From assembly GCA_017938405.1 (NCBI GenBank), contig JAGBBP010000014.1, forward strand, positions 386,702 through 450,701: a stretch of DNA of 64,000 nt, written 5' to 3'. The stretch is from Lachnospiraceae bacterium. GTDB lineage: Bacteria > Bacillota > Clostridia > Lachnospirales > Lachnospiraceae. Shown one piece after another: positions 17,470 to 63,866 of the stretch. Made by a program: the position numbers and the translations under genes. The notes under the pieces were generated by a model. It had not been told where the DNA came from. It did no database searches and saw only the letters and a program-made list of their open reading frames with translations. The first letter of the stretch is position 1. Each line of letters starts with the position of its first letter.

Positions 17470-17499
17470 AGCAACACTCCTTTCCTACTTCATAATTCG

Positions 17500-17529
17500 A
17501 GTATAGCATTGTAAAGAATTTACTGTCAA
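17500..17529 (-). promoter_or_regulatory. Promoter of the Ig-like lipoprotein gene
   Basis: TTGACA (17524-17529) and TATACT (17500-17505) with an 18 bp spacer on the minus strand, about 35 bp before the start codon. Confidence 0.65.
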
Positions 17530-17573
17530 TACATTCCTTGTCGGCAATTTAGGAAGAAAGAGATGCTTATTCT

Positions 17574-17628
17574 TCTCCATACAAACAAACGCCCCTCAAA
17601 CCTCAGCTTTCAACACTGACATTTGAGG
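17574..17628 (-). terminator. Terminator of locus A
   Basis: An 11 bp stem CGCCCCTCAAA/TTTGAGGGGCG (17586-17596 and 17618-17628), with a further weak inner stem, followed on the minus strand by TTTGTTTGT. It lies just after the last permease gene of locus A. Confidence 0.8.
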
Positions 17629-17643
17629 GGCGCACACATTCTT

Positions 17644-19599: not shown

Positions 19600-19636
19600 A
19601 CCGCACCCCTTTCTTCGTTTTTCCATATCTATCTGC

Positions 19637-21598: not shown

Positions 21599-21617
21599 TC
21601 TGTCTCCTCCATAGAAC

Positions 21618-22841
21618 TCATTCTCCTAAGGGATGCAATACCGCCTCATAACAACCGACTGTAAAAGACCGTCCCGGAAGCTCTGACGTTGTATAACCGG
21701 TTTCCATCACCTTTTCCTCTTCATACAACCACAGCATACCATCCGCCAGAACAAAAAGCGACTCTCCGTCTGTATAAAAATTAGCAATATGTGCAGATTC
21801 CTTTTCCCGGATTTTTACCAGATGCTGTTTATCCTCGGCAAAGGAATAACGGAGTCCGTTCGAAAAATAGACAGCATCCTCCGTATGAAGAAACCCACTC
21901 GGAAAAGTCGACGAAAATGCAAGCTCTGTCACCGTTTCCGTCGTATCCGTTTCCACATCATAATGCATTAGAATATCCTTCTTTGTGTCATAATAATAAA
22001 TCCCGTCCTCCATAGTACAAAACAATGCCGGAAGCTTCGTCCACCCCACCGAACGTCCGTCAGACTCTCCCTGCGGCGTTTCCAGACGATATCCCACTAC
22101 GCCCCTGTTCTCGTCTTCCGAGATTTCCGCCACCAACTGATACTCCTTCCAACGGGATATTGTACGCATCGGCGGCGGTAATTCCTTACTTTCTTTGGTT
22201 TCAAAGGAGTAAAAGAATTGATGCCTTGTTACTATACGGGTGCTGCCTTCGTTACTATGCTCCTCATCCACCTCATAAAGCATCCCGTCCGGATATACCA
22301 CCATCTGAAAGGTCGGCTCATTCATCACTACCTCCACACTCCCCTTGGTCGGGTCATAGGCCAGAATAGCGCCGTCCGCAAAGGAATCAAACGTATACAT
22401 ATCAAATTCATCGGTCCGGAAATACAGGACTCCTTCCCTACAGTACAAATCCCTTGCCGGAATTTCTACCGCACATTCCGATTCTTCTCCTCGCTTGGCA
22501 TAGATATAATAGTCCCGCCCGTAATTCACATAATAGGTAATATTATACACTGGATCCTTACATACAAGGACCGGATGATCCTCCGGCATATAGCTATAGG
22601 TTCCGATCATATTTTCCGTCAGATTGCAGTAATACGGGCCGTCTTCTCCCACCACCGTAAGATTCTTTAACACAGCACCCTGCAGCCTACTCACCGCATC
22701 CTCTCCTACCGGCTTACTGAGACCGCCTTTATTTCCCTCTGTACCCGGTTTCGAGACCTCAATATCTTCTCCCGGCTTCTTACATGCTCCCGAAGCAAAC
22801 ACCAATACGCAGATAAGTAAACATAACACTCCCTTTTTCAT
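21618..22841 (-). CDS. Lipoprotein, propeller-like, copy 2 (locus A)
   Basis: About 407 residues with lipobox FASGAC. From LTVVGEDGPYYCNL to the C-terminal RSFTVGCYEAVLHPLGE it is highly similar to the next gene upstream, so the two arose by tandem duplication. The body is beta-rich with recurring DGxLYxxD-type blades and no catalytic motif I recognise. The frame opens at a TTG, but AAGGAGAGG lies 6 nt before the ATG at 22841. It ends 19 bp before the propeller-SBP gene. Confidence 0.8.
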   Translation of the reverse strand: MKKGVLCLLICVLVFASGACKKPGEDIEVSKPGTEGNKGGLSKPVGEDAVSRLQGAVLKNLTVVGEDGPYYCNLTENMIGTYSYMPEDHPVLVCKDPVYNITYYVNYGRDYYIYAKRGEESECAVEIPARDLYCREGVLYFRTDEFDMYTFDSFADGAILAYDPTKGSVEVVMNEPTFQMVVYPDGMLYEVDEEHSNEGSTRIVTRHQFFYSFETKESKELPPPMRTISRWKEYQLVAEISEDENRGVVGYRLETPQGESDGRSVGWTKLPALFCTMEDGIYYYDTKKDILMHYDVETDTTETVTELAFSSTFPSGFLHTEDAVYFSNGLRYSFAEDKQHLVKIREKESAHIANFYTDGESLFVLADGMLWLYEEEKVMETGYTTSELPGRSFTVGCYEAVLHPLGE

Positions 22842-22870
22842 TCCGTCCTCTCCTTTCAAAAAGCACTTTT

Positions 22871-22917
22871 AAAATTCTACACATGGTAGAATTATCTATA
22901 TTCTACCATGTGTAGAA
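22871..22917 (-). terminator. Perfect 18 bp hairpin between the duplicated lipoprotein genes
   Basis: The stem pairs 22875-22892 with 22900-22917 (7 nt loop), followed on the minus strand by TTTTAAAA. Each arm is itself an inverted repeat of TTCTAC/GTAGAA, so the DNA holds four half-sites. Partial terminator is the first reading; a two-site operator is an alternative. Confidence 0.55.
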
Positions 22918-22943
22918 CGGAGTGTCAAGGTAAAATTATGAAT

Positions 22944-24128
22944 TTACTCTCCTAAGGGATGTAACTCTGCCTCATAGCAACCGATTGTAAACGTACGTCC
23001 CGGAATCTGTGATGTAACATACCCTGTTTCCTCCACCCTTTTTTCTTCATACAACCATAGCATCCCGTCCGCCAGAACATACAACTCCTCTCCGTCTGTG
23101 TAATAGCCCTGTATCCATGCACTTCCCTTTTCCTTTATTTCCACTTTATACTGCTTGTTTTCCGAAAAAGAATAACGAATTCCGTTGCTCAAATAAACTA
23201 CATCTTCCTGCACAAAAAACACAGTCGGAAACGTTGACGGAAGTGCCGCTTCTACCAACGTTTCATATTCTCCCGTTTGTATATCGTAATGTATCAAAGC
23301 ATTCTCTTTCACATCCAAATAGAATATTCCGTCCTCCCGGACGCGATAAACTGCCGGAAGTTCTGACCAGTTCGGTAACATGCCTCCAGATTCTCCATCC
23401 GGTGTTTCTAAACGATATCCTACCTTTTTAGCCCCTTCCTCACCCACAGAAGTCTCCGCTACCAACTGATACTCCTTCCAGCAAGACACGGTACGCAACG
23501 GTGGCGGTAATTCCTTACTTTCCTTGCTTTCAAAGGAATAGAAGAACTGATGTCTCGTTCCGCTACGGGTTCCGTCATCGTTGATACGTTCCTCATTCAC
23601 CGTATAAAGAATCCCATCCGGATATACCGCAATCTCATAAGTCGGCTCGTTGATCACAACCTCAACGCTCCCATCAGTCGGGTCATAAGCCAATATTGCT
23701 CCGTCTACAAAAGAATCAAACTCATATAAGTCGTGACCATCTGTCCTAAAATACAAAATACCCTCGCTACAGTACAAATTCCGCGCCGGAATCTCCACCA
23801 CACATTCCGATGTATCCCCACGCTTGGCATAAATATAATAGTCCCGCCCGTAATTCACATAATAAGTAATATCATACACCGGGTCCTTACAAACCGGCAC
23901 CGGATAATCCTCCGGCATATAGGAAAAGGTCCCGATTAAATTTTCCTCCAGATTACAGTAGTACGGACCGTCTTCTCCCACCACCGTAAGTTTCTCCGTT
24001 TTCTCCCCTTGTTGCAACGAAATCACATTATCGGCTACTGACTTACTGAGGCCACCCTGTGTAGATTTGCATGCCGCAATCCCAAACAAAAAAGTGCATA
24101 TAAACAAATAAAATATCCTTTTTTTCAT
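22944..24128 (-). CDS. Lipoprotein, propeller-like, copy 1 (locus A)
   Basis: A 394-residue lipoprotein with lipobox GIAAC. It is a tandem paralogue of the following gene; the segments VNYGRDYYIYAKRG, IPARNLYCSEGILYFRTD and GAILAYDPTDGSVEVV are near identical in both. The fold is probably a beta-propeller like the DUF5050 lipoprotein of locus B. GGAGGG precedes the ATG. A weak -10 (GATAAT) lies 70 bp upstream, but it can also be read from the peptide gene promoter. Confidence 0.8.
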   Translation of the reverse strand: MKKRIFYLFICTFLFGIAACKSTQGGLSKSVADNVISLQQGEKTEKLTVVGEDGPYYCNLEENLIGTFSYMPEDYPVPVCKDPVYDITYYVNYGRDYYIYAKRGDTSECVVEIPARNLYCSEGILYFRTDGHDLYEFDSFVDGAILAYDPTDGSVEVVINEPTYEIAVYPDGILYTVNEERINDDGTRSGTRHQFFYSFESKESKELPPPLRTVSCWKEYQLVAETSVGEEGAKKVGYRLETPDGESGGMLPNWSELPAVYRVREDGIFYLDVKENALIHYDIQTGEYETLVEAALPSTFPTVFFVQEDVVYLSNGIRYSFSENKQYKVEIKEKGSAWIQGYYTDGEELYVLADGMLWLYEEKRVEETGYVTSQIPGRTFTIGCYEAELHPLGE

Positions 24129-24229
24129 TGAAATCCCTCCAAAAATATCTGCGCTATTTTTGTGTCAATATTCTTATGTAAAAATGCTCAAATATTATCC
24201 AATTCCTTTTGTCTTGTGTCCTTGTATTA

Positions 24230-24639
24230 GACATTCACTATTCATTTTACCTAATAAATGTATTTTTCATTTATTCCATAAAGATCGCAATTTACATTTT
24301 TATGATTCGTCACTTGCTTCCAATATGTACCCACTTCAATAAAGCACTTCGTACATATTGATGCCAACTTAAAATTCTGCACTGTATAGTAACAGGTTTC
24401 TGTGTGATACTGTAGCGTATCATGATCCATTACTTCAATCGCATGCGAAGTATTTGACGGAGCCTCTGCATACGCATATCTATCCACACAATTATGTGGC
24501 GGACATGTTGCAGCCTCTGCAACAGCACCTTCAAACGTTCCGACTACTACCATCATAGCTAACACTACAACCGCTGTCAACTTTTTTGCTATTTTCTTCA
24601 TTAGAATTCCTCCTCTTTGTGGTATGAATAGTGAATGTC
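24230..24639. repeat. 16 bp perfect inverted repeat flanking the locus A peptide gene
   Basis: GACATTCACTATTCAT at 24230-24245 and its exact reverse complement at 24624-24639. One copy lies in the leader just before the ribosome binding site, the other just after the stop codon. Both would be in the same mRNA and could pair end to end, or they could be protein sites or ends of a small mobile cassette. Confidence 0.7.
24251..24601 (-). CDS. Small secreted cysteine protein (locus A)
   Basis: A 116-residue precursor with a signal peptide (KKIAKKLTAVVVLAMMVVV...AEAA). The mature part has CPPHNC near its start and then the pattern C-x12-C-x2-C-x18-C, close to C-x12-C-x4-C-x17-C in the agr-linked protein at 60535-60876. 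The frame is open 23 codons upstream, but GGAGG lies 7 nt before the ATG at 24601. A perfect promoter drives it after a leader of about 100 nt. It is followed by the lipoprotein/permease genes of locus A. No family is recognised; a signalling or envelope-binding role is inference. Confidence 0.7.
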   Translation of the reverse strand: MKKIAKKLTAVVVLAMMVVVGTFEGAVAEAATCPPHNCVDRYAYAEAPSNTSHAIEVMDHDTLQYHTETCYYTVQNFKLASICTKCFIEVGTYWKQVTNHKNVNCDLYGINEKYIY

Positions 24640-24708
24640 CTTTATAACATAGATAAGACGATATATACATTCAACATATCCTGCATCCATCCCGTCTACG
24701 CTTTTTAG

Positions 24709-51359: not shown

Positions 51360-53282
51360 TTACTGTTCCCCATTACTTCTGTCAATCAATTCCTGCCAGG
51401 AATCCCAGACCTCTTCTACACACCCCTCCGGCGTTTTATCCGCAAACGGATAATGTTTTGTCAAATCGCGAATATCCAGTCCGTCCACCAGATAACGGGT
51501 TAAGAAATTTACAGTCCCTTTACTCCTCTCGCTATAATAGGAAAGGGTTTCAATGATTGCCCGTTCATCATATTCCCCGTTTCTGTAAAAATCGTTTTCA
51601 TAGAGCTCACCGTAGAAGATTGGATCATTATATCCCGGTGTCTCATTCGTATAAAGGTTATAGGCAAACGCAATATCCGCTGCCGTTTCCGCATCATAAC
51701 AGGACGGAATTACCCATACATTTCCGTACACATAGGTGTAATACTCTTCCTGCCCGTCCGGCTTCGGTGGCACCACAAAACCAATCTCATCGGTCATACC
51801 ATTCACTCCGTAAGGTGCATCCGGCTTACAAAGAGCTTCCTCCCCGAACTGCATAGCAGCCTTTCCTTCCTGAAATGCTGTAATATGCCGGTCCGCATCC
51901 GCCTGTACCGGCATTTCATATCCCTTTTCATAAAGCTTCGCCGCAAACTCCATGGCGCCCAACACATCTTCATCCAGACAATTATTATAGATTATTCCGT
52001 CTTCCGCCACTGCCACAAAATCTTTTCCGGTGGAAGACACCAAACACTGCAGGGTATCCGTCCCATCCGAACAGGTAGCATACACATCCGTCTGCCCGTC
52101 GCCGTCCGTATCACGGGTTAATCTTTCGCAAATCTCCTCAAACTTCGACCAGGTCCATTCTCCGGTAGCCTGTAAATCATAAGGAAGATTCGGGTCAATC
52201 CCCGCTTCCGCAAGCAATCGCTTATTAAAAAGGATTCCTCCTCCCGGCTCCATCGGTTCCGTCACTACCGAACGCATGCCGTATACGCTTTTTCCTTTGG
52301 TCATAACTTTTTTTACCGCACTGTTCCATTTCCTCTCCCGTTCCCGGTCCGTAATCCCTAACTCATCAAGGGAAGCAAGATCATAGAACAGTCCCATAGA
52401 CAGCGGTTTTGCAAAATCTCTGTAGTCCAGTTCAAACACCTGTGCAACCGGCTCACCTTCCGTCACCGACTTTATGTAAGTCTCCTTCATCTCTTCCGGT
52501 TCGGCTACCTTCTTTGCCAAAATCGTATAGTTATATTTTCCCATCATTGCCTCACGATATTTCCCGGTGGCCTCCTCCTGTGCATTGGTGGGTTCCGGCG
52601 TAACCTCCGGAGAATAGGTATCTCCCACAATAATCTCCAAGCCCTTTAGGTCTCTTACCTCCTCCGGTTCCGCTGTTACCCCTGGTGTCACAGCACTTTC
52701 CGGTGTAGCACTCGAAAGTATCCCGGAAATCCAATCCACAATCTCGGTTGCCCGCGCATCATTGGCATTATGCTGTCCATGGGCATCGTACGCATACAGC
52801 TCTACCCCTTGAAGATTTCCGTCCTTATCATAATAGCCTCCCCACCATCCGCCTTTCGCTGACTCAACCGCCGGTCCAAAGTCCGGTCGTTTTACTTCAT
52901 AATCTTTATTCTTACTGATTTCACATAGTTTTTTGTAGTTCTCAAACAACTCCTCCACTTCACAAGTGGCATATAACTTCATTTTTTTCGACAATTCTCC
53001 CGATGCAAACTGCTCTTCAATATCCCAAATTGCCCAGGACTCTTCGCCCCATTCCTCCAGCTTGTAAAAGTTTCCGTTTCTGTCACAAAAGGTCCAGACT
53101 CCCTGCAGTTCATATTTATCTGCCACATCCGTGAAATCAGTTGATGACCAGAACACAATCTCCGGCATCTGTTCCGGCTTTCTAAGCTTTTTCGCCACCG
53201 TACGGTCACCGCCGCAACCGCATAGCATGGTTGCAAACAACGTAACAATACAAAGTAGTTTCTTACTCTTTCTCTTTCGCAT
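51360..53282 (-). CDS. Solute-binding lipoprotein with an extended N-terminal region
   Basis: About 640 residues from ATG 53282 (GGGGGAG upstream). Lipobox TMLCGC. Residues about 30-270 contain tryptophan-rich segments (WTFCDRNGNFYKLEEW, AKGGWWGGYYDKDGN) of unknown family; residues about 270-640 resemble an extracellular solute-binding protein (GGGILFNKRLLAEAGIDPN, WTWSKFEEICERLT, YGNVWVIPSCYDAETAADIAFAYNL). An acid Pro/Thr-rich linker separates the parts. It follows the locus B permease operon after a terminator, so it is a separate unit. Confidence 0.8.
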   Translation of the reverse strand: MRKRKSKKLLCIVTLFATMLCGCGGDRTVAKKLRKPEQMPEIVFWSSTDFTDVADKYELQGVWTFCDRNGNFYKLEEWGEESWAIWDIEEQFASGELSKKMKLYATCEVEELFENYKKLCEISKNKDYEVKRPDFGPAVESAKGGWWGGYYDKDGNLQGVELYAYDAHGQHNANDARATEIVDWISGILSSATPESAVTPGVTAEPEEVRDLKGLEIIVGDTYSPEVTPEPTNAQEEATGKYREAMMGKYNYTILAKKVAEPEEMKETYIKSVTEGEPVAQVFELDYRDFAKPLSMGLFYDLASLDELGITDRERERKWNSAVKKVMTKGKSVYGMRSVVTEPMEPGGGILFNKRLLAEAGIDPNLPYDLQATGEWTWSKFEEICERLTRDTDGDGQTDVYATCSDGTDTLQCLVSSTGKDFVAVAEDGIIYNNCLDEDVLGAMEFAAKLYEKGYEMPVQADADRHITAFQEGKAAMQFGEEALCKPDAPYGVNGMTDEIGFVVPPKPDGQEEYYTYVYGNVWVIPSCYDAETAADIAFAYNLYTNETPGYNDPIFYGELYENDFYRNGEYDERAIIETLSYYSERSKGTVNFLTRYLVDGLDIRDLTKHYPFADKTPEGCVEEVWDSWQELIDRSNGEQ

Positions 53283-53390
53283 TTTTCTCCCCCTCTTCCA
53301 CTCATATTGTATCATAATGGATTCCCATGCCTAATTCCTTCATTTCACCTACTTTCATTTTACTCCCGTACCTGTTTTACTGTCAATCGC

Positions 53391-53432
53391 AAAACAAAGG
53401 CAAAGAAATTCTCAAAGAACTCCTTTGCCTTT
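53391..53432 (-). terminator. Terminator of locus B
   Basis: Stem AAAGGCAAAG/CTTTGCCTTT (53396-53405 and 53423-53432) followed by GTTTT on the minus strand, just after the locus B TM protein gene. Confidence 0.75.
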
Positions 53433-53449: not shown

Positions 53450-54181
53450 TCAAATCGGAAACCTTTCCATATTCACTTTCCACCCGTTCCAGTCAATGAG
53501 CTTTCCCGGAATCCACTCCCCCGGAAGCAGAACGGTTGCCCGCAAGAACAGGCACACCAGTATGCACCATAAAATCAGCACCGGCACCTTTGCAAAGCGC
53601 CATCGTCCCTTACAAAAACGATTGCACAGCACCACTACGCCCACCGTTGTAAGTGCCGCCCCGACGACACAAAGGATGTCGATTTTCAGGCGGTTTCCCA
53701 TGACAGCGGCATGACTTGTAATATCTTCTCCCCGCTCCCTTGCGGTATGCAGGGCCACTGATTCATTCATTTCCGTCAGCAGTACCCGCTGTCCGCCGTA
53801 TATGTCCCGGTCACTGCCTACCACCACCTTTGTCTTTGTAAATATTCCGCTCTTTACTTCCACATACCCCTCCGCTTCTTCCCCGGTTACAATATAATAT
53901 TCCACCAAAAACGTACCATCCTCAGTCTCGTTTACAGCATATACCATATCCCCGAAATCTCCCCGTAATGCCGCTTTCGGAACAGCAGGCACAGTCCGCC
54001 ATTTGTCGTAAACCACACCGTCTGTTTCGATGGTTCCGTCCGGAAATCCCCTACGTTCCACCGCTTCCACCGCCACCTTCGGCAGGGTCAGACAGTACAA
54101 GTCCTCCGCAAACAGGGTAAGTAACAGCATAATGGTAAAGAACACCGCAAAAATAATATCCGCCGCTTTTTTCGTTTTCAT
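53450..54181 (-). CDS. Two-TM-region protein of locus B
   Basis: A 243-residue protein with one N-terminal TM helix (about 8-26), then LFAEDLYCLTLPKVAVEAVERR like the shorter protein of locus A, an exterior domain, and C-terminal TM helices (about 170-190 and 200-225). It overlaps the MalG-type permease by 4 bp, so translation is coupled. No known family. Given its position at the end of both permease modules, a role in transporter assembly or substrate delivery is plausible. Confidence 0.7.
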   Translation of the reverse strand: MKTKKAADIIFAVFFTIMLLLTLFAEDLYCLTLPKVAVEAVERRGFPDGTIETDGVVYDKWRTVPAVPKAALRGDFGDMVYAVNETEDGTFLVEYYIVTGEEAEGYVEVKSGIFTKTKVVVGSDRDIYGGQRVLLTEMNESVALHTARERGEDITSHAAVMGNRLKIDILCVVGAALTTVGVVVLCNRFCKGRWRFAKVPVLILWCILVCLFLRATVLLPGEWIPGKLIDWNGWKVNMERFPI

Positions 54182-54981
54182 AGCTTCATACTCTCCAATC
54201 CGACCTCCAGACTGTCATGGAAGTACAAATACAAAATGACAATGGGAATCATAAAAATCACCGAGCCCGCCAGCACCTCCGAGGTGGTCAGGCCCTCCCC
54301 GATGGCAAGGAGCCCGGAAAGCGGTTTTAGAGTTTCCCGTTTCAAATAGATATCCGCCTGCTCCACCATATTCCAGTATTCCGCAAAGACAAATACGAAC
54401 ACTGCCAGAATACAGGTCCGAAGCTGGGGCACAATCATCTGCAACATAATCCGGAACACCGACTTGGTTTCCAAAAGTGCCGCTTCCACATAGGACTGCT
54501 CCAGCCCCTTCATATACTGGGTCAAAAGGAACACACTGAAAGGCGCAAATATGGACGGCAATACAATGGCAAAGGGCGTATCCAGAAGCTTCATATCCCG
54601 CAGCCCGATGTAGTTCGGAAGCAGTGTCACCTGTAAAGGCATCATCATGAGCATGATGTAGAAAAAGAACAACAACTCCTTTCCCTTAAACTTCGCCTGG
54701 GAAAAGGCGTAAGCCGCCGGCACCGACACCGCGATATTGAGACACGTAATACTGCCCGCATAAAACACCGAATTCCAAAAGTTCCGCAACACATAAAAAT
54801 GCTCGATAAGCAAATCATAATATCCCACCAAAGAAAATCCGGAAGGCATCAGACTTGTAAGCCGGAAATTCCCTTCATCCACAGACTGGGTTCCGAAGGA
54901 ATGCACTACCGTTAACAGAATCGGAAGCAGAAACAACAGGGCGCACAGAACCAGAACACTTTTCACCAAAAACTTTTTCAT
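54178..54981 (-). CDS. Carbohydrate-type ABC permease, MalG-like (locus B)
   Basis: A 267-residue permease, six TM helices, with MLMMMPLQVTLLPNYIGLRDMKLLDTPFAIVLP and an EAA loop VEAALLETKSVFRIMLQMIVP. Close paralogue of 17644-18411. It starts 12 bp after the MalF-type permease. No ATPase gene nearby. Confidence 0.9.
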   Translation of the reverse strand: MKKFLVKSVLVLCALLFLLPILLTVVHSFGTQSVDEGNFRLTSLMPSGFSLVGYYDLLIEHFYVLRNFWNSVFYAGSITCLNIAVSVPAAYAFSQAKFKGKELLFFFYIMLMMMPLQVTLLPNYIGLRDMKLLDTPFAIVLPSIFAPFSVFLLTQYMKGLEQSYVEAALLETKSVFRIMLQMIVPQLRTCILAVFVFVFAEYWNMVEQADIYLKRETLKPLSGLLAIGEGLTTSEVLAGSVIFMIPIVILYLYFHDSLEVGLESMKL

Positions 54982-54993
54982 CCATCGCCCTCC

Positions 54994-55788
54994 CTATACG
55001 GTAAATTTCTTTTGCAGTCTGACACCTACCACTACGATGACCGCCACAATAAGGGAGGTCATCACCGCGGCAGAGGCCAGATTCTGGTAATTTAACTTAT
55101 AGAAATGATTGTTCATGTAATACTGCAAGGTATAGCTGTGGTCCGGCGGATAGCTGGTCCCGAAATACAAATAGCTTTCCCGGAACACCTTAAAGCTGTA
55201 TACCACGCCGATTAACACCGTAAACAACAGGGTCGGCGAAATAAGAGGCAATGTAATTTTTCGATGTAATACAAATCCGCAGGCTCCGTCCAGCCGTGCC
55301 GCCTCGTAGATGTCTCCCTCTAACGTGGAAAAGGCCGCACTGAGCAATATAATGAGAAGTCCGATATTTTTGTAGATAAACAACAAATACACCGGCCAGA
55401 CCGACTCACTCCCGTCAAACAAGGTCCGCCATACCACCACCACACTGGCGGTGGGTACCAGCATTGGGAAAATAAACGCAATCCGCAACAGCTTCCAGTA
55501 CCCCTTCATTTTCAGGAGCAATAACGACAGTAAAAACGCCGCCACCACCAGCACCGGTACCGCAATGACTATGAGCAGCAGGGAGTTTTTCAGTGCCAGT
55601 CGGAAATACTCGTTTTGGAATACCTTTTCATAGTTTTGTACCCCCACAAACTTCCGGCTGAACTGATTTTCAATGAGCGAATAATAAATGACACGCACAT
55701 AGGGCAGCACATAAAACAGTGCTACCCCAAATAAGCTTGGAATCAACAACAACCGACACTTCAGTAAATACTTCTTCACCCTTTTCAA
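54994..55788 (-). CDS. Carbohydrate-type ABC permease, MalF-like (locus B)
   Basis: A 264-residue permease; EAA loop YEAARLDGACGFVLHRKITLP and the PPDHSYTLQYYMNNHF segment are shared with the locus A copy. The start is TTG at 55788 (3 nt from AGGAGGTT) or GTG at 55779 (about 11 nt away); both are possible, as in locus A. It follows the solute-binding protein gene by 51 bp. Confidence 0.9.
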   Translation of the reverse strand: MKRVKKYLLKCRLLLIPSLFGVALFYVLPYVRVIYYSLIENQFSRKFVGVQNYEKVFQNEYFRLALKNSLLLIVIAVPVLVVAAFLLSLLLLKMKGYWKLLRIAFIFPMLVPTASVVVVWRTLFDGSESVWPVYLLFIYKNIGLLIILLSAAFSTLEGDIYEAARLDGACGFVLHRKITLPLISPTLLFTVLIGVVYSFKVFRESYLYFGTSYPPDHSYTLQYYMNNHFYKLNYQNLASAAVMTSLIVAVIVVVGVRLQKKFTV

Positions 55789-55839
55789 AACCTCCTCTGC
55801 TTCAGATAACAGATACTACGGTCTGCCCCCTTACCCCGT

Positions 55840-57072
55840 TTATTCTTCCTTGTACATCTTTATATTTCTCTGAATCTCCGTTATCATCGTATCGAAGTCC
55901 TGCTTACCTTCCCGGTAAGCCATAAGCTCCGCCCCTACCACATCATAGGGATATGTAGCGTACACCTCTGCCTCCGAAATCAGACGGTAAATATCCTGCC
56001 GTAACGCATTGTCGGAAAAATCCTCTCCTCGAGACATCCACCGGAACGGAAGGGAAGTGTCCTTTTGTAACTTCTCACATAGCTGGGATACATATTCTAT
56101 GGTTTGTTCCAGCTTTGCGGACTTGGGATTGATTACAATAAAATACACCGTTGCCCCGCTCGGACAATCCACTCCCTCCTCCAAATCCGGTAGCTCTATC
56201 GCCCGGAATCCGTCAATACGGAAAAAGTCCAAACTGATAGAAAGTGTCATATTATCGCTGCGTTCCAGCTCAAATATCATTTTCTTCATGGATTCCTCCG
56301 ACAGGTGACTCACCGTTTTCTCACTGCTGAGAAACCACCATTTTCCCTCGTTAAAAGGCACATCATAGACACGCATCTTCTCCATATAGTTCCGGAGCAA
56401 CGACTTCTCCGATTCGCTCATATTTTCATACCCGTAAACCTGTTCAAATTTACTCGTAATATCTCCGGTCATTAAGCCATAAGGAGTGAAAAATGTATGC
56501 TCTCCGTTTTTCGGAAGGGCCTCTACCTGTTCCAAAAACTCCGTATACGTCATGTTGTCAAAATCCAGACCAAACTCCTCACATACGTCCTCCCTGTAAA
56601 GAACAAAGGGAACATTCACCCCGCAGGGAATCATCCAGATATCTCCGTTTTCTGCCGTTGCCGCCTCCTTGATGTAGTCGTGATACCGGTCAAGAAGTCC
56701 GGCCACCTCCGGAATCTCATTTAAGGCATAGTACGCGCCGGTCCGCAAAATATCTGTTGCCAGGGAACTATCCGTAGACAGCATCATAAAGTCATAATCC
56801 GAATCCCCTGCCAGAAGCTTTGTCACCATAAGCTCACTATCCTCCGGCTCAACAAGCTCTGCTTTCACATCACAAGTACCAAGCTGGTAAGGCGCATAAA
56901 TTTTGGAATAGGTATACCCCAAAAGGGTATCCTCCGGCACACCGGTCACTTCCCCCGGGTTCTGCGTCTCCGGCGGAGTCTGCGTCTTCCCGCATCCTGC
57001 AAACAGCAAACCTATCACTCCCCATACCGCCAACCACTTTTTCTTCGTTTTCTTCGTTTTCTTTCCCTTCAT
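55840..57072 (-). CDS. Solute-binding lipoprotein (locus B)
   Basis: A 410-residue lipoprotein with lipobox LFAGC. The body matches the C-terminal half of the propeller-SBP fusions: LLAGDSDYDFMMLSTDSSLAT, ALNEIPEVAGLLDRY, EAATAENGDIWMIPCGVNVPF, and a C-terminal FDTMITEIQRNIKMYKEE. It is the stand-alone solute receptor for the two permeases that follow. Substrate unknown; it need not be a sugar. Confidence 0.88.
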   Translation of the reverse strand: MKGKKTKKTKKKWLAVWGVIGLLFAGCGKTQTPPETQNPGEVTGVPEDTLLGYTYSKIYAPYQLGTCDVKAELVEPEDSELMVTKLLAGDSDYDFMMLSTDSSLATDILRTGAYYALNEIPEVAGLLDRYHDYIKEAATAENGDIWMIPCGVNVPFVLYREDVCEEFGLDFDNMTYTEFLEQVEALPKNGEHTFFTPYGLMTGDITSKFEQVYGYENMSESEKSLLRNYMEKMRVYDVPFNEGKWWFLSSEKTVSHLSEESMKKMIFELERSDNMTLSISLDFFRIDGFRAIELPDLEEGVDCPSGATVYFIVINPKSAKLEQTIEYVSQLCEKLQKDTSLPFRWMSRGEDFSDNALRQDIYRLISEAEVYATYPYDVVGAELMAYREGKQDFDTMITEIQRNIKMYKEE

Positions 57073-57091
57073 CTCTTTCTCCCTTCAAAAA

Positions 57092-57125
57092 CATAGCGTT
57101 TTGCTTGCGAAACTCTCGCGCCGCT
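57092..57125. repeat. Second copy of the GTT..GCT.GCG hairpin repeat
   Basis: ATAGCGTTTTGCTTGCGAAAC then TCTCGCGCCG matches the repeat at 16065-16097 (ATAGAGTTCCGCTCGCGGAAC then TCTCGCGCCG). The base changes in the stem are matched on both arms, so the hairpin is kept. The rest of 57073-57199 holds no gene. Confidence 0.55.
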
Positions 57126-57199
57126 TATGCTTATACAAAGAGCATAGCAGAAAAAGATAAAGATTTTCGGCAGAAAAAACGAAAGAAAAAGGAAAGAAT

Positions 57200-59284
57200 T
57201 TATTCCTTCAGATACAGATTCAGTTTTCTCTCCAATTCCGGAATCACCTCGTCCAAGGACTTCTTCCCGTTTATGTATTTCAGGTACTCTTCCTCAAACA
57301 CATCGTCCGGATATGCAAAAACAATTCTTGCCTCCGCATAAATGTCATGCACCTTACGTTCCAGTGCATTATATTCCCTTTGTAATTCCTTTGTACGGTA
57401 TATACTCTCCTCTGCATTCAGTCGCTCCGTCAACACAGTCAAGAACTCTTTTGCCTCTGCCAAGTGAGTCGAATTCGGATTTAACACCAAAATATATGCA
57501 GAGGCAAGCTGACTTCCGAACTCGCCCCCCTCCAGGGCCGGCATAGGCTTTACCGAGAAAAAATCATAATCCAAAAATCCGTAAGAGCCTCCGTCAATAT
57601 TTACACTATACTCCTGCGATAAGGTATGCTTATCCGTCGCCACAAAAGCAACCTGGGAAAAATAATCTTCAAAATATACCGCCACTTCTTCCTCGGTACT
57701 ATTATAAGATGGCGCTTCCGCTCCCGGATTTAACCGTGCATAGCGATACACTCCATCCTTTTCCCGAAAATTTTCTTCTTTGTACCATTGGGAATACTTT
57801 CGGAACAACGGGGTATCAAAGTTTGCCTTTCCGTTTACCACCGCATAATCTGCCAAATAACGCCCCGTGACACGAAACCTGTCCCGCAAAAAACTATAAC
57901 TATAGTAGGACGGCTCCCCGGATTCTTCCGCTTTCTCCAATGTCTGTTGCAATTTCCACAAAGCTTCATTGGAATATTCCGTTTCCAAATCCGCCCCGTA
58001 CGCCTTACAAAGCTCCGGGTTATATACCAACACATCGCAACTGATATCACAGGGAAGCATCCATATCGCTCCGTTCTCATCCGTTGCAGCCGCCTCCATA
58101 AAGGCAAAGCTTTCCTGCAGATATTCTCCCACTCCATCCACACGATTCAAAGGTTCGTATGCACCTACTCTTCGAATCTGCTCCGCCACCGGTGAATCGG
58201 TGGAAAGCAGCAGAAAATCATAGTCACCGTCCCCTGCCATCATGGACATTGCCATGGTTTCCTCATCAACCTCCACCATGTTGATTTCAAAACCGGTTCC
58301 CTCCGGCATCGTAAACACATGCGTATTATAATAAATTCGTAACGGCTCATAATCTTTTATATAATTACTGTTCTTAATTCTGTGAAGCTGTCCGTTTAAA
58401 AGGTAATAGCTTCGTCCGTCCTGACACCAAAGACCGGTTCCGCTAAGGAATCCGTCCACCGTATAAAAACTGGACTGATTATTAATCTCTGCCGGGTCCA
58501 TGGCAATCAGCACCGACTTAAAAACATCCCCCGTTAAAAGCTTGTCACATTCTGCATCATAGGCAAAGCACTCTAAAAACACATTAAAATAATCACCTAC
58601 ATGGCTTTTTTCTCCCAGCACCCCTTTTTCTGTATCATAGGGTGCAAAATAATATTTTCCGTATTCAAAATCATAGCCATAAACAAAAAGTGTCCGGTCA
58701 TCCTTCTTTGCAACGGCACGAATCCGTTCCACCGGGACCTCCTCTGCACTTCCTGTATCCAACGAGTAACACAGGAACCGTTCTCCGTAATAATAATACT
58801 CCCCCGCCGGATCACTTAACAAATCCGTCTCCACCGGTTCTTTCTCAACAAAGAACAATCTTCCGTTCCCGTAAGACAAATCTTGTGCTGTCCAAGCTTT
58901 CGGATTCTCATAAAGCGTCTTCCGGCTTCCGTCCTCCAAGGATATCTCTACCAGACAAATTCCGCACGAATACAGGTCTTCCCCTTCTCCCGAGACAATG
59001 GCATACAAGGTATCTTCTCCATAGCAAAGGGTAAAAAACTCTTTTTCGTCTGCCGGGATATTCTTTGTCTGCGCTCCGCTAGAATCAAATACACTGATAC
59101 AGCCGTCCTCTTTTCGATAGGCATACAGATTCCCTGCCTTATCCACACAAAACTGCGAAACGCCGTTTACCGGATAAACGAAATCCGCTTCCTTTACTTC
59201 CGCATTGTTTTCTTTGTTCTTCCTGCAACCGCAGATTCCCCAAACACAAAACAATAACACAAAAAAAAGTATTCCACGCTTCAT
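57200..59284 (-). CDS. Lipoprotein: propeller-like region fused to a solute-binding domain (locus B)
   Basis: About 694 residues from ATG 59284 (AGGGAGA upstream; the 11 extra codons are not supported). Signal peptide with GICGC. The N-terminal half has blade-like repeats (KAGNLYAYRKEDGCISVFDSSG, ETDLLSDPAGEYYYYGERF). The C-terminal half has MAGDGDYDFLLLSTDSPVAEQ, EPLNRVDGVGEYLQ, EAAATDENGAIWMLPCDISCDVLVYN and an ending LDEVIPELERKLNLYLKE, like locus A. It is the paralogue of 19637-21598. Confidence 0.82.
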   Translation of the reverse strand: MKRGILFFVLLFCVWGICGCRKNKENNAEVKEADFVYPVNGVSQFCVDKAGNLYAYRKEDGCISVFDSSGAQTKNIPADEKEFFTLCYGEDTLYAIVSGEGEDLYSCGICLVEISLEDGSRKTLYENPKAWTAQDLSYGNGRLFFVEKEPVETDLLSDPAGEYYYYGERFLCYSLDTGSAEEVPVERIRAVAKKDDRTLFVYGYDFEYGKYYFAPYDTEKGVLGEKSHVGDYFNVFLECFAYDAECDKLLTGDVFKSVLIAMDPAEINNQSSFYTVDGFLSGTGLWCQDGRSYYLLNGQLHRIKNSNYIKDYEPLRIYYNTHVFTMPEGTGFEINMVEVDEETMAMSMMAGDGDYDFLLLSTDSPVAEQIRRVGAYEPLNRVDGVGEYLQESFAFMEAAATDENGAIWMLPCDISCDVLVYNPELCKAYGADLETEYSNEALWKLQQTLEKAEESGEPSYYSYSFLRDRFRVTGRYLADYAVVNGKANFDTPLFRKYSQWYKEENFREKDGVYRYARLNPGAEAPSYNSTEEEVAVYFEDYFSQVAFVATDKHTLSQEYSVNIDGGSYGFLDYDFFSVKPMPALEGGEFGSQLASAYILVLNPNSTHLAEAKEFLTVLTERLNAEESIYRTKELQREYNALERKVHDIYAEARIVFAYPDDVFEEEYLKYINGKKSLDEVIPELERKLNLYLKE

Positions 59285-59341
59285 ACAATATCTCCCTATA
59301 AATAATACTTTTCGCAATTTTATAACTAACGTGATATCATC

Positions 59342-60445
59342 TTACAAAACCAAGCCAATTTCCCCTGTCTCTAAATCATAGAACCGAAACACCGGGAGGT
59401 CCACATCCGTAGTTTTTTCAGTGAAATACAGACGATTATTCGCAACACCGTATAACTCCACTTGGGTATCTATTTTATCTGAATTCTCCGAATAGATAAC
59501 TTCTACCACATCCGTACTTGTGGTAATTGCACTTATCTGTCTCATATTTGTATAATATAGTTTTCCGTTAAAGAAAACACTCCGTAGCCCATAGGTTCCC
59601 TTCCACTCCTTCTCTTCTCCTGTTGCCAGAGAAACTGCACTCATATTCCCTGTCCCTTTCAAAAAGAAAAGCGTCTCTCCGGAAATCTGCGGATACATTG
59701 CTCCGTTATACAACGTTACTGCTTCGCTTCCATCCAGCTTTACCGCCTCAATTTTTGCCCCGCCCGAAACACCTCCGGTAATTATCGAATCTCCGTAAAT
59801 ACAAAACCAACCGAAATCGCCTCCATCCTCCCTCTTAAATACTATGTCAGTTCCGCTTCCGTCCAATTCCATTCTCCCAATATAATCTACTTCGTTAAAA
59901 AAAATCCCTTTTTCTGTCACAAGAATACTTCCTGCTCGTTCTTCTCCGAGAACTTCCGCTTCTATACCATCCTTATGTACCCTTTTAATTCGATTGTAGG
60001 TGTTACTTTGTATTCCGTCGTCAATGTAATATATGTAGTCACCTACCACCTGAATTGCCCGCGGACTATCTTTAGACAACACCCTCTTATCTGTTCCGTC
60101 CGGCTTGCTGACACACAAATACCCCTCATGATTTAAATCTTTGTAGTAAAGCATTCCTTCATTCTCACAAATATATCCCAATGCCAAAAGATTCGCTTGC
60201 GAGTTTCCTAGCTCCCATACTTCTCCTTTTATAATCTCATTTATTTTTCGTTCCGGTACTTTCGTCAACTTTGGCGTAGTAGTTACCTTTTGTTTACTTA
60301 CACCTTCTGTTATCTTTATATCTGCGGTTATCTTTGAGACTTCCGTTACCGGCGGTGATACCTTCCCCCCCTCTTGTTTTTCTTCGCATGCCGTCATGCA
60401 AAAAATAAAAAGAGTTAATAATGAACAGATTTTTAACCTTCTCAT
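59342..60445 (-). CDS. DUF5050-like propeller lipoprotein (locus B)
   Basis: A 367-residue lipoprotein with lipobox CMTAC and a Thr/Val-rich linker. Repeats such as GDYIYYIDDG, EGMLYYKDLNHEGYLCVSKPDG and KLYYTNMRQ are typical of DUF5050 propellers. It corresponds in position to the two lipoproteins of locus A. It follows the agr operon's last gene after a weak hairpin, so it can be co-transcribed with it. Confidence 0.82.
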   Translation of the reverse strand: MRRLKICSLLTLFIFCMTACEEKQEGGKVSPPVTEVSKITADIKITEGVSKQKVTTTPKLTKVPERKINEIIKGEVWELGNSQANLLALGYICENEGMLYYKDLNHEGYLCVSKPDGTDKRVLSKDSPRAIQVVGDYIYYIDDGIQSNTYNRIKRVHKDGIEAEVLGEERAGSILVTEKGIFFNEVDYIGRMELDGSGTDIVFKREDGGDFGWFCIYGDSIITGGVSGGAKIEAVKLDGSEAVTLYNGAMYPQISGETLFFLKGTGNMSAVSLATGEEKEWKGTYGLRSVFFNGKLYYTNMRQISAITTSTDVVEVIYSENSDKIDTQVELYGVANNRLYFTEKTTDVDLPVFRFYDLETGEIGLVL

Positions 60446-60485
60446 ATTTCTTTCTCCTTTACAAATTCATCTTCACCTTCATAAA

Positions 60486-60515
60486 CAAGAGAGACATCTA
60501 AGGACATCTCTCTTG
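60486..60515 (-). terminator. Weak terminator-like hairpin after the agr operon
   Basis: Stem CAAGAGAGA/TCTCTCTTG (60486-60494 and 60507-60515, 12 nt loop) followed by TTTAT on the minus strand. The short T run suggests partial read-through into the lipoprotein and permease genes. Confidence 0.55.
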
Positions 60516-60534
60516 CTTATCCATTTCAATAACA

Positions 60535-60876
60535 CTATTCTATCTGACAAAGCCCTGTTTCTGACGGACAATATTCATGATCCATTTCATGTAAACGAGG
60601 CCCCATGCTCAAATGAATCTGACATGCCGAATTAGCACAATACAAATCATGACGGCCTGCCCCTGCAGTTTTCCAGCACCGAGCTTCTCCATTTGGCGTA
60701 ACATACAGCACATGGTACCCTGCTGATGTATAATAAAACGGTCCCGTGCATCTTATCTCTATCGCGTTAGCACTACATCCCGTTTTATGCTCCGCCGCAT
60801 AGACACTAATACCTCCTGTTGCTAACACTGTTGCAGCAATTAATGCTCCTGCAATTACTTTCTTCGCTCTCTTCAT
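60535..60876 (-). CDS. Small secreted cysteine protein, fourth gene of the agr operon (locus B)
   Basis: A 113-residue precursor with a signal peptide (AKKVIAGALIAATVLATGG...YAA) and a mature part holding the pattern C-x12-C-x4-C-x17-C (ARCWKTAGAGRHDLYC...). It overlaps the end of agrB by 4 bp (ATGA), so translation is coupled. This is not a normal part of agr. The same kind of protein starts locus A. Possible roles are a second signal, an agr-controlled effector, or a surface protein binding the transporter's substrate; none is shown by the sequence. Confidence 0.75.
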   Translation of the reverse strand: MKRAKKVIAGALIAATVLATGGISVYAAEHKTGCSANAIEIRCTGPFYYTSAGYHVLYVTPNGEARCWKTAGAGRHDLYCANSACQIHLSMGPRLHEMDHEYCPSETGLCQIE

Positions 60877-61517
60877 ATCATTTTCCTCCTGTCAAACAAA
60901 ACTTTTTTATCAACTGTTTCTTCAACTTTTTTACACATTCTCTTTCTCAAATACACATTCTTCCACTTTCCTAACAGTAACATCAGTGCCAGAACGCACA
61001 AAACCAAAGTCATGCACATTCCCAGGCGCTCCCAACTAAAAAACATAGTCAAAAGTGAAATTATACTCTCCGTCAGAACGATTCCTCTTGCCCGTTTCCT
61101 ATAAACCACCTTCTCCACATCATCCAATGGTTTGTTTCTGTCTTCCACAGGCACAAGGAACCAAATCATACTGCCGGAAACTGCTGTCAGACAAACGCAA
61201 ACAAGACTGGAACACATCACATATCTCATTACCCAAAGCACTGCGCTTATCATCACAATTGAGAAAAAGTAACAGCGAACCGCTGTCTTGGCATGGTATC
61301 CTCCGGCAAAACTTCGAAGCGGTATATATGCCGCCATAAACAAAAGACTCTCTAAAAGCTTTCCGAATACCATACCGATAACCATTGTTGTCCCAAGATT
61401 TAACAAAGCAATCATACCCTGTTGAATTCCGTACCGGTAGATTTCTTTGTCTTCCCTTGAAATTGCTTCATTTGTGAGTAACCATCCGGTTATTCGCTCT
61501 GATAAAACCTCAAACAT
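60873..61517 (-). CDS. agrB: Agr-type autoinducer peptide processing protein
   Basis: A 214-residue membrane peptidase that cuts AgrD and forms the thiolactone peptide. The catalytic residues His75 and Cys82 lie in RSFAGGYHAKTAVRCYF, the AgrB signature. About six hydrophobic helices. The start ATG overlaps the stop of agrD (TAATG), and the end overlaps the secreted protein gene (ATGA), so all three are translationally coupled. Confidence 0.96.
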   Translation of the reverse strand: MFEVLSERITGWLLTNEAISREDKEIYRYGIQQGMIALLNLGTTMVIGMVFGKLLESLLFMAAYIPLRSFAGGYHAKTAVRCYFFSIVMISAVLWVMRYVMCSSLVCVCLTAVSGSMIWFLVPVEDRNKPLDDVEKVVYRKRARGIVLTESIISLLTMFFSWERLGMCMTLVLCVLALMLLLGKWKNVYLRKRMCKKVEETVDKKVLFDRRKMI

Positions 61518-61660
61518 TAAAACTTTCGAAGTCTCTTAGCAGTCTCCGGTAACGGCTCTTGGTATATAACAAAATGACATGTCGAATTCGAAACCAATGT
61601 CGTCACTACCAATGCAAATGTCGCCAATACATGTGCATATTTCCCGCAAAACCTCTTCAT
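61517..61660 (-). CDS. agrD: Agr-type cyclic lactone autoinducer peptide precursor
   Basis: A 47-residue precursor with a hydrophobic N-terminal leader (about 8-24) and the signal core NSTCHFVIYQEPLP, where Cys28 would close the thiolactone; the charged tail ETAKRLRKF is the processed part. NSTC-HFVI resembles the STC-DFIM core of S. aureus AIP-I, with a ring of Cys28 and about four following residues. GGAGGGG precedes the ATG at 61660; the longer frame is not the gene. It is the first gene of agrD-agrB-secreted protein. Confidence 0.93.
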   Translation of the reverse strand: MKRFCGKYAHVLATFALVVTTLVSNSTCHFVIYQEPLPETAKRLRKF

Positions 61661-61734
61661 GCTACAGTCCCCTCCTTTCCACAAATCTTTTGGGCAACTG
61701 TAGTTTAACATAAAACGACACATTGTGCGGGAAG

Positions 61735-61762
61735 TTGCAGTAAAATGCCTACTTTTTGCAGT
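61735..61762 (-). promoter_or_regulatory. Candidate AgrA binding repeats upstream of agrD
   Basis: The heptamer TTGCAGT occurs at 61735-61741 and 61756-61762, 21 bp apart (two helical turns), about 75-100 bp before the agrD start and partly inside the agrC 3' end. LytTR regulators bind such spaced direct repeats. No strong -35 is visible before agrD (a TAAACT -10 is possible), which fits an activator-dependent promoter. Confidence 0.4.
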
Positions 61763-63056
61763 CAACGGTCAAATACAACAAAGCATCTACAGTAAACACT
61801 CCGTTATTATGATTCACATTCATGCATCCGTTGTATTTTTTCGCTACCGCTTCTATATTTTTCAAACCGAACCCATGCTCTTTTCGGTTCGTTTTCGTAC
61901 TTACAATTTTACCATTCTCATATTGCACCTCCGTCGCATACGGATTTGCACAATGAATCATCAAACGTTCTTTATCAAACACTACCTTCAGCTTCAAATA
62001 CCGCTCGGACTCTTCTACCTGTCGCACGGCATGTAGGGCATTATCCAAAAGATTTCCCAACACAGTAATACTGTCCGAAACATTCATCCCAAAGTCTTCC
62101 GGAACCGCAACCTCTGCCTCCACTCGTATCTGTTCATTTCCGACACTTTGCAACTTGTAATTAATGATACTGTCTATCGGTATGTTTCCTGTTGCACTGA
62201 ATAAAATCTTCGTGTTCAATTTTCCTGACAATCCACCTACCAATTCTTTCGCTTCCTCATACTTTCCCACACCCATAAGCTCAGACACCCCAATCAACTG
62301 ATTCTTTAAGTCATGACGAAACGCCCGTAGTTCATTCGTAGAGTTCTGCATCATAGTACACTGATTGTAGTAAAGTTCCCGTTCTTTTTCTAATACCGCT
62401 GCCTCCGAAAGTTTTATATAATTTGCAGTTAGAGAATCATATAAATAAAAAGTAGTGACATTCACCAATAAAATCAATATCGTTGCTACAATCACCTCTG
62501 TTTGTGTAACATCCTCAGAGTGTACAATCAACACATTCAATATAAATGTAACTACCGGCATCAGCACAGACGCTAACCAAGTAGACAATTTTACATTATG
62601 ATATCGACGAACCGACTTAAAATTGTAAAGAAGCAATGCCGCCACATAAGTAATCAACGGCACAGCTATTACACCTAAAACGTTATTATATCCACCTTCA
62701 CTAAAAATTGAAAATTGAAAATATCCCGTACATGCTACAATAATAGTTTCCGTGATAACACAAAAAATAAGTATGTACAGAGCACTTAATACACGTTTTA
62801 ACATCCCTGCTTTATAATTAAGTGAAATAAAAAAAAGAAGAGCATAATTCGCAAGTAACGTCAATATCGGAATATCCACATACAAATACAAAAGACTTGT
62901 CCCCACAAAATAAGAAAAATAGGACAGTCCACAAATCCACACTTTAGAACGCCTTTGCTCAAAAAATGCCATCATAAATCTATGGTTCACCGCTATACTA
63001 AACAAATTCGTTATCAAATACACAATCGTATAAGTATCAAACTTCACCTTACACAC
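61749..63056 (-). CDS. agrC: Agr-type sensor histidine kinase
   Basis: A 435-residue membrane kinase: about six TM helices (to residue about 200), then a cytoplasmic part with the phosphorylated His in FRHDLKNQL (about residue 250) and a GHKL ATPase domain with TVLGNLLDNALHAV and GFGLKNIEAVAKKYNG. It senses the processed AgrD peptide. It overlaps agrA by 8 bp, and agrD lies downstream, so this is a complete, if reordered, agr system (agrA-agrC-agrD-agrB). Confidence 0.93.
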   Translation of the reverse strand: MCKVKFDTYTIVYLITNLFSIAVNHRFMMAFFEQRRSKVWICGLSYFSYFVGTSLLYLYVDIPILTLLANYALLFFISLNYKAGMLKRVLSALYILIFCVITETIIVACTGYFQFSIFSEGGYNNVLGVIAVPLITYVAALLLYNFKSVRRYHNVKLSTWLASVLMPVVTFILNVLIVHSEDVTQTEVIVATILILLVNVTTFYLYDSLTANYIKLSEAAVLEKERELYYNQCTMMQNSTNELRAFRHDLKNQLIGVSELMGVGKYEEAKELVGGLSGKLNTKILFSATGNIPIDSIINYKLQSVGNEQIRVEAEVAVPEDFGMNVSDSITVLGNLLDNALHAVRQVEESERYLKLKVVFDKERLMIHCANPYATEVQYENGKIVSTKTNRKEHGFGLKNIEAVAKKYNGCMNVNHNNGVFTVDALLYLTVDCKK

Positions 63057-63768
63057 CCCCGTTTTCCATTTTCATTTGTAGCATTGCGACATCCTTTCGC
63101 TTTCCCTTTGCAACCGGTATTCTTTCGTCGTTTACCAGATACATACAATCCGGGTGAAAGGATTTCACAAATCGATAGTTCACAATATAAGATTTGTGCG
63201 GTATAAAAAAGGATTTGTTTTTTACCCGCTCCCACACATTCTGAATCGCTCCGTAAAATATTTCCTCTCCGGTCAGCATCTTTATTTTCACCTTCCGGTC
63301 AACACTTTCAAAATACAAAACATCACCCAGCTTTACAAAATATGTACTGTGACCGGACTTGTATTCAAACCGCTCCTGTGTTTCACCATAGATACGCACA
63401 TACTTAGAAAGCATCTCCCTTATTTTTTCCTGCGATGCCGGCTTCTCTATAAATCCAAAAGGGCGGAACTCAAACAACTGTCTGTCATATCCGTTCTTTC
63501 CTGTCAAATAAACAATCTGGGTCAGTTCATCCTGTAATGTCTCCCGGATAAAGCGGCTCACATCGATTCCGCTATAGTCCCCCATCTCAATATCCAGGAA
63601 AATCAAGTGATACATACACTCATGCTTCAGAGAACCGACTGCCTCTTCTCCCGAGCCCAACACATCGATTTCCGCCTCTAACCGTAATTCCTTACGCACC
63701 TCTGTCAGTAGGCATTCCGTCTGCGCCGCTACTGATTTTTCATCGTCTACCACAGCTATTTTTAACAT
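63049..63768 (-). CDS. agrA: LytTR response regulator, Agr-type
   Basis: A 239-residue regulator from ATG 63768 (AAGGAGA upstream; the longer frame is not used). Receiver domain with VVDDE, LIFLDIEMGD (phospho-Asp) and the Lys in FIEKPAS; then a LytTR DNA-binding domain (ENKSFFIPHKSYIVNYRFVK, RIPVAKGKRKDV). It activates agr promoters when phosphorylated by AgrC. Its own promoter is at 63797-63825. Confidence 0.93.
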   Translation of the reverse strand: MLKIAVVDDEKSVAAQTECLLTEVRKELRLEAEIDVLGSGEEAVGSLKHECMYHLIFLDIEMGDYSGIDVSRFIRETLQDELTQIVYLTGKNGYDRQLFEFRPFGFIEKPASQEKIREMLSKYVRIYGETQERFEYKSGHSTYFVKLGDVLYFESVDRKVKIKMLTGEEIFYGAIQNVWERVKNKSFFIPHKSYIVNYRFVKSFHPDCMYLVNDERIPVAKGKRKDVAMLQMKMENGGV

Positions 63769-63796
63769 AAGCATTCTCCTTGGTTGTAATACCTTC

Positions 63797-63825
63797 ATTT
63801 TATCATGAAATCGAAGGTTTTTCAA
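63797..63825 (-). promoter_or_regulatory. Promoter of agrA-agrC
   Basis: TTGAAA (63820-63825), 17 bp, TAAAAT (63797-63802) on the minus strand, about 30 bp before the agrA start. Confidence 0.75.
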
Positions 63826-63826
63826 C

Positions 63827-63866
63827 AAAAAAACAGCCCCTCTCCGATACCTCGGAAAGGGGGTTG
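63827..63866 (-). terminator. Terminator upstream of agrA, facing left
   Basis: Imperfect stem CCCCTcTCCGA/TCGGAaAGGGG (63837-63863), followed by seven T on the minus strand. It would stop leftward transcripts entering from the right, but the only start seen to the right is a plus-strand ORF, so its own gene seems to have been displaced. Confidence 0.75.

Follow-up and report, generated by a model that had tools for sequence, protein, structure and literature searches.

A 64,000-nucleotide stretch of a gut Lachnospiraceae bacterium genome, here called the window (assembly GCA_017938405.1, contig JAGBBP010000014.1; G000:C7:386702-450701, ending where its contig ends), carries a complete agr quorum-sensing set. 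Behind it on the same strand come the gene for CysP, a small protein in which a secretion signal is predicted, and genes for lipoproteins and an ATP-binding cassette (ABC) transporter. Among relatives, the part that recurs is the slot after agrB, in which a small secreted protein is followed by a strong hairpin with a low-U tail and then by lipoproteins and/or ABC genes. We read this arrangement tentatively, with confidence a little short of even, as a cassette under density control that would yield more of the small protein, a predicted bacteriocin-like effector, than of its likely partners, the lipoproteins and importer. Crowding would likely switch on mainly the small secreted protein rather than the transporter.

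Ten genomes of the genus were compared (G000, which contains the window, through G009; completeness, 72 to 97%). In the window, agrA, agrC, agrD, agrB, CysP, a DUF5050 lipoprotein, a fusion of a beta-propeller with a substrate-binding protein (propeller-SBP), a separate SBP, two permeases, and a membrane protein (TM) all lie on the minus strand in uninterrupted open reading frames (ORFs), and domain matches together with the ORFs confirm the order given in a first-pass annotation of the same DNA.

63837-63862, minus strand: terminator-like hairpin with a T-run ahead of agrA, resembling the hairpin behind ilvC in G006 and G003
63797-63825, minus strand: predicted agr promoter, TTGAAA-17-TAAAAT, a consensus match that is closely similar in G006
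63049-63768, minus strand: agrA, LytTR response regulator (PF00072, 46.9 bits; PF04397, 50.5 bits)
61749-63056, minus strand: agrC, GHKL sensor kinase with an FRHDLKN box (PF14501, 87.2 bits)
61517-61660, minus strand: agrD, pheromone precursor of 47 amino acids (TIGR04223, 27.6 bits; cut-off, 19)
60873-61517, minus strand: agrB, AgrD-processing peptidase with an H...C pair (PF04647, 144.4 bits; cut-off, 23)
60535-60876, minus strand: CysP, small protein with a predicted Sec signal in the slot after agrB, outside Pfam and NCBIfam families and compared through alignments
60481-60520, minus strand: strong hairpin with a low-U tail in RNA folding, a likely leaky internal terminator or 3' stabilizer
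59342-60445, minus strand: DUF5050 lipoprotein (PF16472, 83.2 bits)
57200-59284, minus strand: propeller-SBP fusion lipoprotein (AlphaFold2 model, mean pLDDT 83.7; PDB profile matches)
57166-57190, minus strand: core (TTTCG...CGAA) of a promoter-like block upstream of the SBP gene, common to G006 and G003
55840-57072, minus strand: SBP lipoprotein, homologous to the C-terminal half of the fusion (32% identity, E = 6.9e-37)
54994-55788, minus strand: ABC permease 1 (PF00528)
54178-54981, minus strand: ABC permease 2 (PF00528)
53450-54181, minus strand: TM, without a Pfam match, beside the permeases in G003, G006, G007, G008, and G009
53396-53432, minus strand: hairpin with a T-rich tail, a likely transcript end (-22.3 kcal/mol)
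16624-24670, minus strand: locus A, a related module without agr (CysP-type gene at 24251-24670, two lipoproteins, propeller-SBP at 19637-21598, TM, two permeases, and a lipoprotein)

The agr set proved as complete as first annotated, with AgrB and AgrD above their family cut-offs, receiver and LytTR domains in AgrA, and PF14501 in AgrC. Matches over cut-off to PF14501 and PF04397 place the kinase and regulator in an Agr system, and the NCBIfam equivalog models scored far below cut-off (27.5 of 500 bits for AgrC and 26 of 400 for AgrA). The H and C of YHAKTAVRC in AgrB, which we take to be the catalytic pair, are 7 residues apart. Agr systems make and sense a thiolactone peptide, and the ring rule known from Staphylococcus, a cysteine plus four residues, predicts rings of CHFVI in G000, CFYIA in G007, CCFIM and CRFIM in G009, and CCFLV in G006, each followed by a conserved QEPLPE tail. 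From the position of a ribosome-binding site, agrA most likely starts at 63768 rather than at the ORF start at 63906. As the promoter scan found 26 sites against 20.9 expected, single matches were not used as evidence; the scan lists no site between CysP and the DUF5050 gene, and one 9-of-12 match inside CysP (60568-60595) is at chance frequency. The search for an RNAIII-type gene consisted of an Rfam scan.

Within the genus, agrACDB precedes the permease and TM genes on one strand in four of the ten genomes (G000, G006, G007, and G009); in G008, agrB and the permeases are on different contigs. AgrB proteins of G006, G007, G008, and G009 (two copies) are 72 to 86% identical to that of the window, G008 also encodes an AgrB of a different type (27.7% identity), and G001, G002, G004, and G005 gave no AgrB match. 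The gene ilvC lies upstream of agrA in G007 and G006. In G000 it sits at the edge of another contig, C17, and the agr site is therefore probably the same ilvC-flanked site, split by a contig break.

What follows these agrB genes has been replaced between genomes. The next gene encodes CysP in G000 and G007, and in G006, G008, and the second G009 copy it encodes secreted-type proteins of 142, 144, and 156 amino acids with no detectable similarity to CysP. The genes behind differ as well: two lipoproteins, an ABC ATPase (PF00005), and a 664-amino-acid protein in G006, and three lipoproteins and a 716-amino-acid protein in G008, the two large proteins having no Pfam match and a membrane-bound appearance. 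Behind the first G009 agrB copy, an ORF ending in GLCQY (L015:14254-14502) appears to be the C-terminal end left over from a deleted CysP. The second G009 agrD-agrB pair (L015:1553-5746) has no agrA or agrC beside it and is followed by the 156-amino-acid protein, a hairpin, and two lipoproteins.

The first-pass annotation had also described CysP as translationally coupled to agrB. The reading frames do overlap by ATGA in the window, where AgrB has 214 amino acids rather than the 192 to 206 of relatives, but the overlap is absent from the four copies in genus relatives that keep a small gene, where gaps of 39 to 63 nucleotides are found, and a coupling role was dropped for that reason. At L161, a locus from a different genus, a separate overlap is present.

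Between CysP and the DUF5050 gene, where the first-pass annotation saw a weak hairpin, the computed fold is strong: 18 pairs at 60481-60520, -23.9 kcal/mol, and z of -5.7, with none of 200 shuffles as good. Folding the gap behind the small gene at five genus loci gave z scores of -4.9 (G000), -6.1 (G007), -3.2 (second G009 copy), and -6.4 (G006), the fifth being G008, so that z was -3 or lower behind the secreted gene at four of the five, compared with 0 of 20 other testable gaps (Fisher p = 0.0004). The stems themselves are dissimilar in sequence and their U-tails are poor. In eight loci from other genera, picked by eye for matching gene order before folding, z was -3 or lower in 6 of 8 small-gene gaps versus 1 of 9 others. 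A long stable stem, a low-U tail, and a position between genes of what may be one operon are the features of a low-U internal terminator, and the hairpin likely lowers output of the genes behind it.

The first-pass annotation proposed that cell density controls deployment of the transport and lipoprotein module. In its full form this would be a single agr-driven transcript deploying nutrient uptake at high density, with CysP as an accessory, an explanation we consider rather unlikely. The shared strand, the mostly short gaps, and the adjacency in four genomes fit it, as does the sugar-SBP fold of the fusion. The AlphaFold2 model consists of a beta-propeller followed by an SBP, and PDB profile matches assign the N-terminal half to beta-propellers and the C-terminal half to sugar-binding proteins, the latter being the best matches; the fusion falls below the Pfam SBP_bac_1 cut-off (23 versus 26), and Pfam gave no match for the single SBP. 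An SBP with two BPD_transp_1 permeases is the makeup of a sugar-type ABC importer, and a Pfam scan of the ten proteins of 53450-63768 gave no ABC ATPase match.

Four results count against that single transcript. The slot cargo is dissimilar between genomes, a strong hairpin follows CysP, and in G003 (86% complete) the SBP, permease, and TM genes adjoin ilvC with no agr found. The fourth is the 25-base promoter-like block ahead of SBP, identical in G006 and G003 and with one mismatch in G000 despite differing preceding genes, so that the gene run need not be one transcription unit; the block was not found in the fetched G007 and G009 loci, both of which have no separate SBP. The SBP-permease-TM part likely has its own promoter, in partial agreement with the independent promoter that the first-pass annotation had named as contradicting its proposal. 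Locus A has the related module with no agr; its permease 1 is 57% identical, and its fusion 23%, to the agr-linked counterpart. Density control of the transporter is thus only partly supported: the agr link stands, and the swapped slot gene, the hairpin, the agr-less G003 site, and the SBP's own promoter-like block shift the likely target to the small secreted protein.

The same G003 site and promoter-like block would be expected if the agr block and the module were chance neighbors downstream of ilvC, with the module on promoters of its own, which we regard as quite improbable. The wider distribution of the fusion bears on this. Few genomes carry it (6 of 61 relatives and, at E <= 1e-15, 3 of 397 in the family), and a pattern-based scan with one genome per species yielded 29 loci, 23 of them outside the genus, or 22 once L066, a fragment without a profile match, was dropped. 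None of these 22 has agrB nearby, several being cut by contig ends, and neither CysP nor propeller-SBP was seen in 60 agrB loci outside the genus. The adjacency that the first-pass annotation suggested looking for elsewhere holds in part of the genus and was not found in these loci outside it. Chance, however, fits poorly with an adjacency kept in four genomes whose Agr proteins are 65 to 86% identical, with the recurrence of a small gene and hairpin after other agrB genes, and with two nongenus loci, L063 (4017-6064) and L069 (41-1627), where a LytTR regulator and a GHKL kinase stand beside the same fusion with no AgrB match, the L069 kinase overlapping the start of the fusion.

CysP itself diverges quickly. 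In each of the three genome pairs compared, it has the lowest identity of any protein in its module: 38% between G000 and G007, against 42% for DUF5050, 52% for TM, 68 to 71% for agr, 70% for the fusion, and 90 to 91% for the permeases; 40% against 77 to 93% for the rest of locus A between G000 and G003; and 27% against 41 to 79% at locus A between G000 and G006. A homology search with the single sequence found CysP alone, and an alignment-based search found 17 proteins including the query, none with Pfam domains. Common to its relatives are C, H, C, and CxxC, with HxxC present in most. The fold model was too weak for assignment. CysP has no match to PF09683/TIGR01653, and PF09683 gave no hit at E <= 0.001 anywhere in the G000 genome. 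The secretion signal of CysP was judged by sequence pattern only.

This conserved C-H-C-CxxC-HxxC pattern would also suit a proteinaceous uptake system under quorum control. CysP would then be released in excess at high density to capture zinc, a different metal, or a glycan, and the propeller lipoproteins, the SBP of the fusion, and the permeases would retrieve either CysP or its cargo. Eleven of the 22 nongenus propeller-SBP loci have a CysP-type neighbor (10 of the 11, picked by eye, are in the alignment used), the permeases are of importer type, and there is precedent for an SBP in excess (PMC9045158). We nevertheless judge capture unlikely: the fast divergence of CysP suits conflict better than a constant ligand, the SBP matches are of sugar rather than metal type, and the slot at other agr loci holds a bacteriocin or membrane and ATPase sets.

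Those other loci come from a census of 100 agrB loci, in a family where AgrB is common (126 of 397 genomes at E <= 1e-10). Fifteen of its loci have small secreted genes downstream of agrB, 16 distinct ones in all; the gap could be tested for 13 of these, and 10 of the 13 have predicted multimembrane or ATPase genes among the next five genes. Apart from L174 and L219, the agrB-linked small secreted proteins gave no match over curated NCBIfam or Pfam cut-offs. In L174, from the distantly related genome G371, agrA, agrC, agrD (TIGR04223, 37.1 bits), and agrB (PF04647, 118 bits) stand directly before a lactococcin-972 cassette. It consists of two PF09683/TIGR01653 genes, which score 47.2 and 45.5 bits against a cut-off of 22, a gene for a TIGR01654 membrane protein, at 245.5 bits against 189, and a PF00005 ATPase gene. 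Lactococcin-972 genes occur in 5 of 397 family genomes and are beside agrB in G371; in G300 they are followed, about 5.5 kb away and past a gene on the opposite strand, by an AgrB on their own strand (E = 4.8e-13), and at the remaining three loci, one cut by a contig end, no AgrB was seen. The AgrD of L174 (2902-3027, STSGIGFYEPKMP) has no cysteine, and a serine lactone is possible.

Several results weigh against a density-controlled effector cassette. CysP matches no bacteriocin family in Pfam or NCBIfam, its cysteines would also suit a metal-binding or signaling protein, and its partner set is importer-type, unlike the exporter- or immunity-type sets of other cassettes. Of the 10 genus genomes, only 2 have an intact CysP next to agr, and G009 keeps a remnant. 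A scan of the agr promoter for AgrA-type direct repeats gave nothing beyond chance. Behind the small gene of G008 there is no hairpin (z, +0.3), and the hairpin is not tied to agr, reaching z of -3 or lower in 4 of 11 CysP-type loci without agr: L047, L057, L058, and L067 are at -4.5 or lower, L061 and L073 at about -2.5, and locus A, L018, L020, L071, and L072 have none. In a set of 60 loci with a loose signal detector, the association was not significant (z <= -3 in 7 of 19 versus 28 of 144 gaps, p = 0.080; z <= -4 in 6 of 19 versus 20 of 144, p = 0.057). The detector was tightened after that first, nonsignificant test, and the stricter version, applied to the 100 agrB loci, gave z <= -3 in 8 of 14 versus 9 of 80 other gaps (p = 0.0004), or 8 of 13 distinct genes versus 9 of 77 with double entries removed (p = 0.0002). 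It missed two genes found by eye, L121 without and L163 with a hairpin, both of which were in the by-eye fold test.

With these points counted, the effector cassette remains our preferred reading. The bacteriocin-like nature of CysP is predicted from slot, gene order, and divergence rather than from a sequence family. A single agr promoter would drive agrA through CysP; AgrB would make a thiolactone peptide from AgrD, to which AgrC and AgrA would respond. The hairpin may terminate part of the transcripts or protect the CysP mRNA, the SBP, permease, and TM genes are probably also transcribed from their own promoter, and the lipoproteins and importer may protect the producer or take CysP up again by binding it, alone or in a complex. 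A broader proposal, possible and held with less confidence, is that Agr operons of Lachnospiraceae have a general plug-in slot after agrB, combining a small, fast-evolving Sec-secreted effector, a low-U hairpin that makes the effector dominant, and the effector's own receptor or immunity set, with CysP as a new cysteine/histidine-rich effector class whose cognate partner would be a propeller-SBP importer rather than an exporter.

Several known systems come close in part. The enterococcal Fsr system is agr-like. To our knowledge, the targets of the family's AgrB systems are mostly untested. A rumen review speaks of limited evidence (PMC10838665), and Fsr is reported to control secreted proteins (PMC5454873), the proposed likeness being peptide quorum sensing that governs secreted proteins and the difference the cargo. 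AgrB, AgrD, AgrC, and AgrA are each recognizable as in agrBDCA of Staphylococcus and agrACDB of C. difficile, the gene order here being that named for C. difficile (PMC3754575); a secreted-protein cassette directly behind agrB and rings that vary among relatives set the present system apart. As in lactococcin 972 cassettes (PF09683, TIGR01653, and TIGR01654), one of which occupies the L174 slot, a small secreted protein precedes membrane and ATPase genes, but CysP is outside that family and its partners are propeller and SBP lipoproteins with importer permeases. In PMC11161930, agr and lactococcin-972 clusters are reported far apart. Low-U stems behind SBP genes of ABC importer operons in Ruminiclostridium are reported to act as partial terminators with efficiencies of 20.7 to 96.1% (PMC9045158; related work on selective RNA processing and stabilization [SRPS], PMC8219983), and there too a long low-U stem separates an abundant extracellular component from membrane parts, whereas here the predicted stem follows a small secreted protein and not an SBP. 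Our literature search, whose coverage excluded most subscription papers, found no title or abstract opening describing such an agr-linked cassette in Lachnospiraceae. If the slot after agrB is recognizable, genomes could be read directly for candidate secreted proteins under quorum control, new bacteriocin classes among them, and each agrD-cargo pair is a testable signal-output prediction.

Other features of the window lie around these genes. Near the contig end, 63900-63973 holds an inverted repeat (GCATAGGCTTCAAT / ATTGAAGTCCTATGC) like the edge of an insertion element. Behind the operon lies another SBP-like gene (51360-53315), preceded by a promoter-like TTGACA-18-TAAAAT (53357-53386, 11 of 12 positions). 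In locus A a strong hairpin (22845-22943; z, -6.6) separates the two lipoprotein genes, the gap behind the CysP-type gene there having none. A TwoAYGGAY RNA motif (RF01731) lies on the plus strand at 4301-4465, scoring 102 bits against a gathering score of 43.

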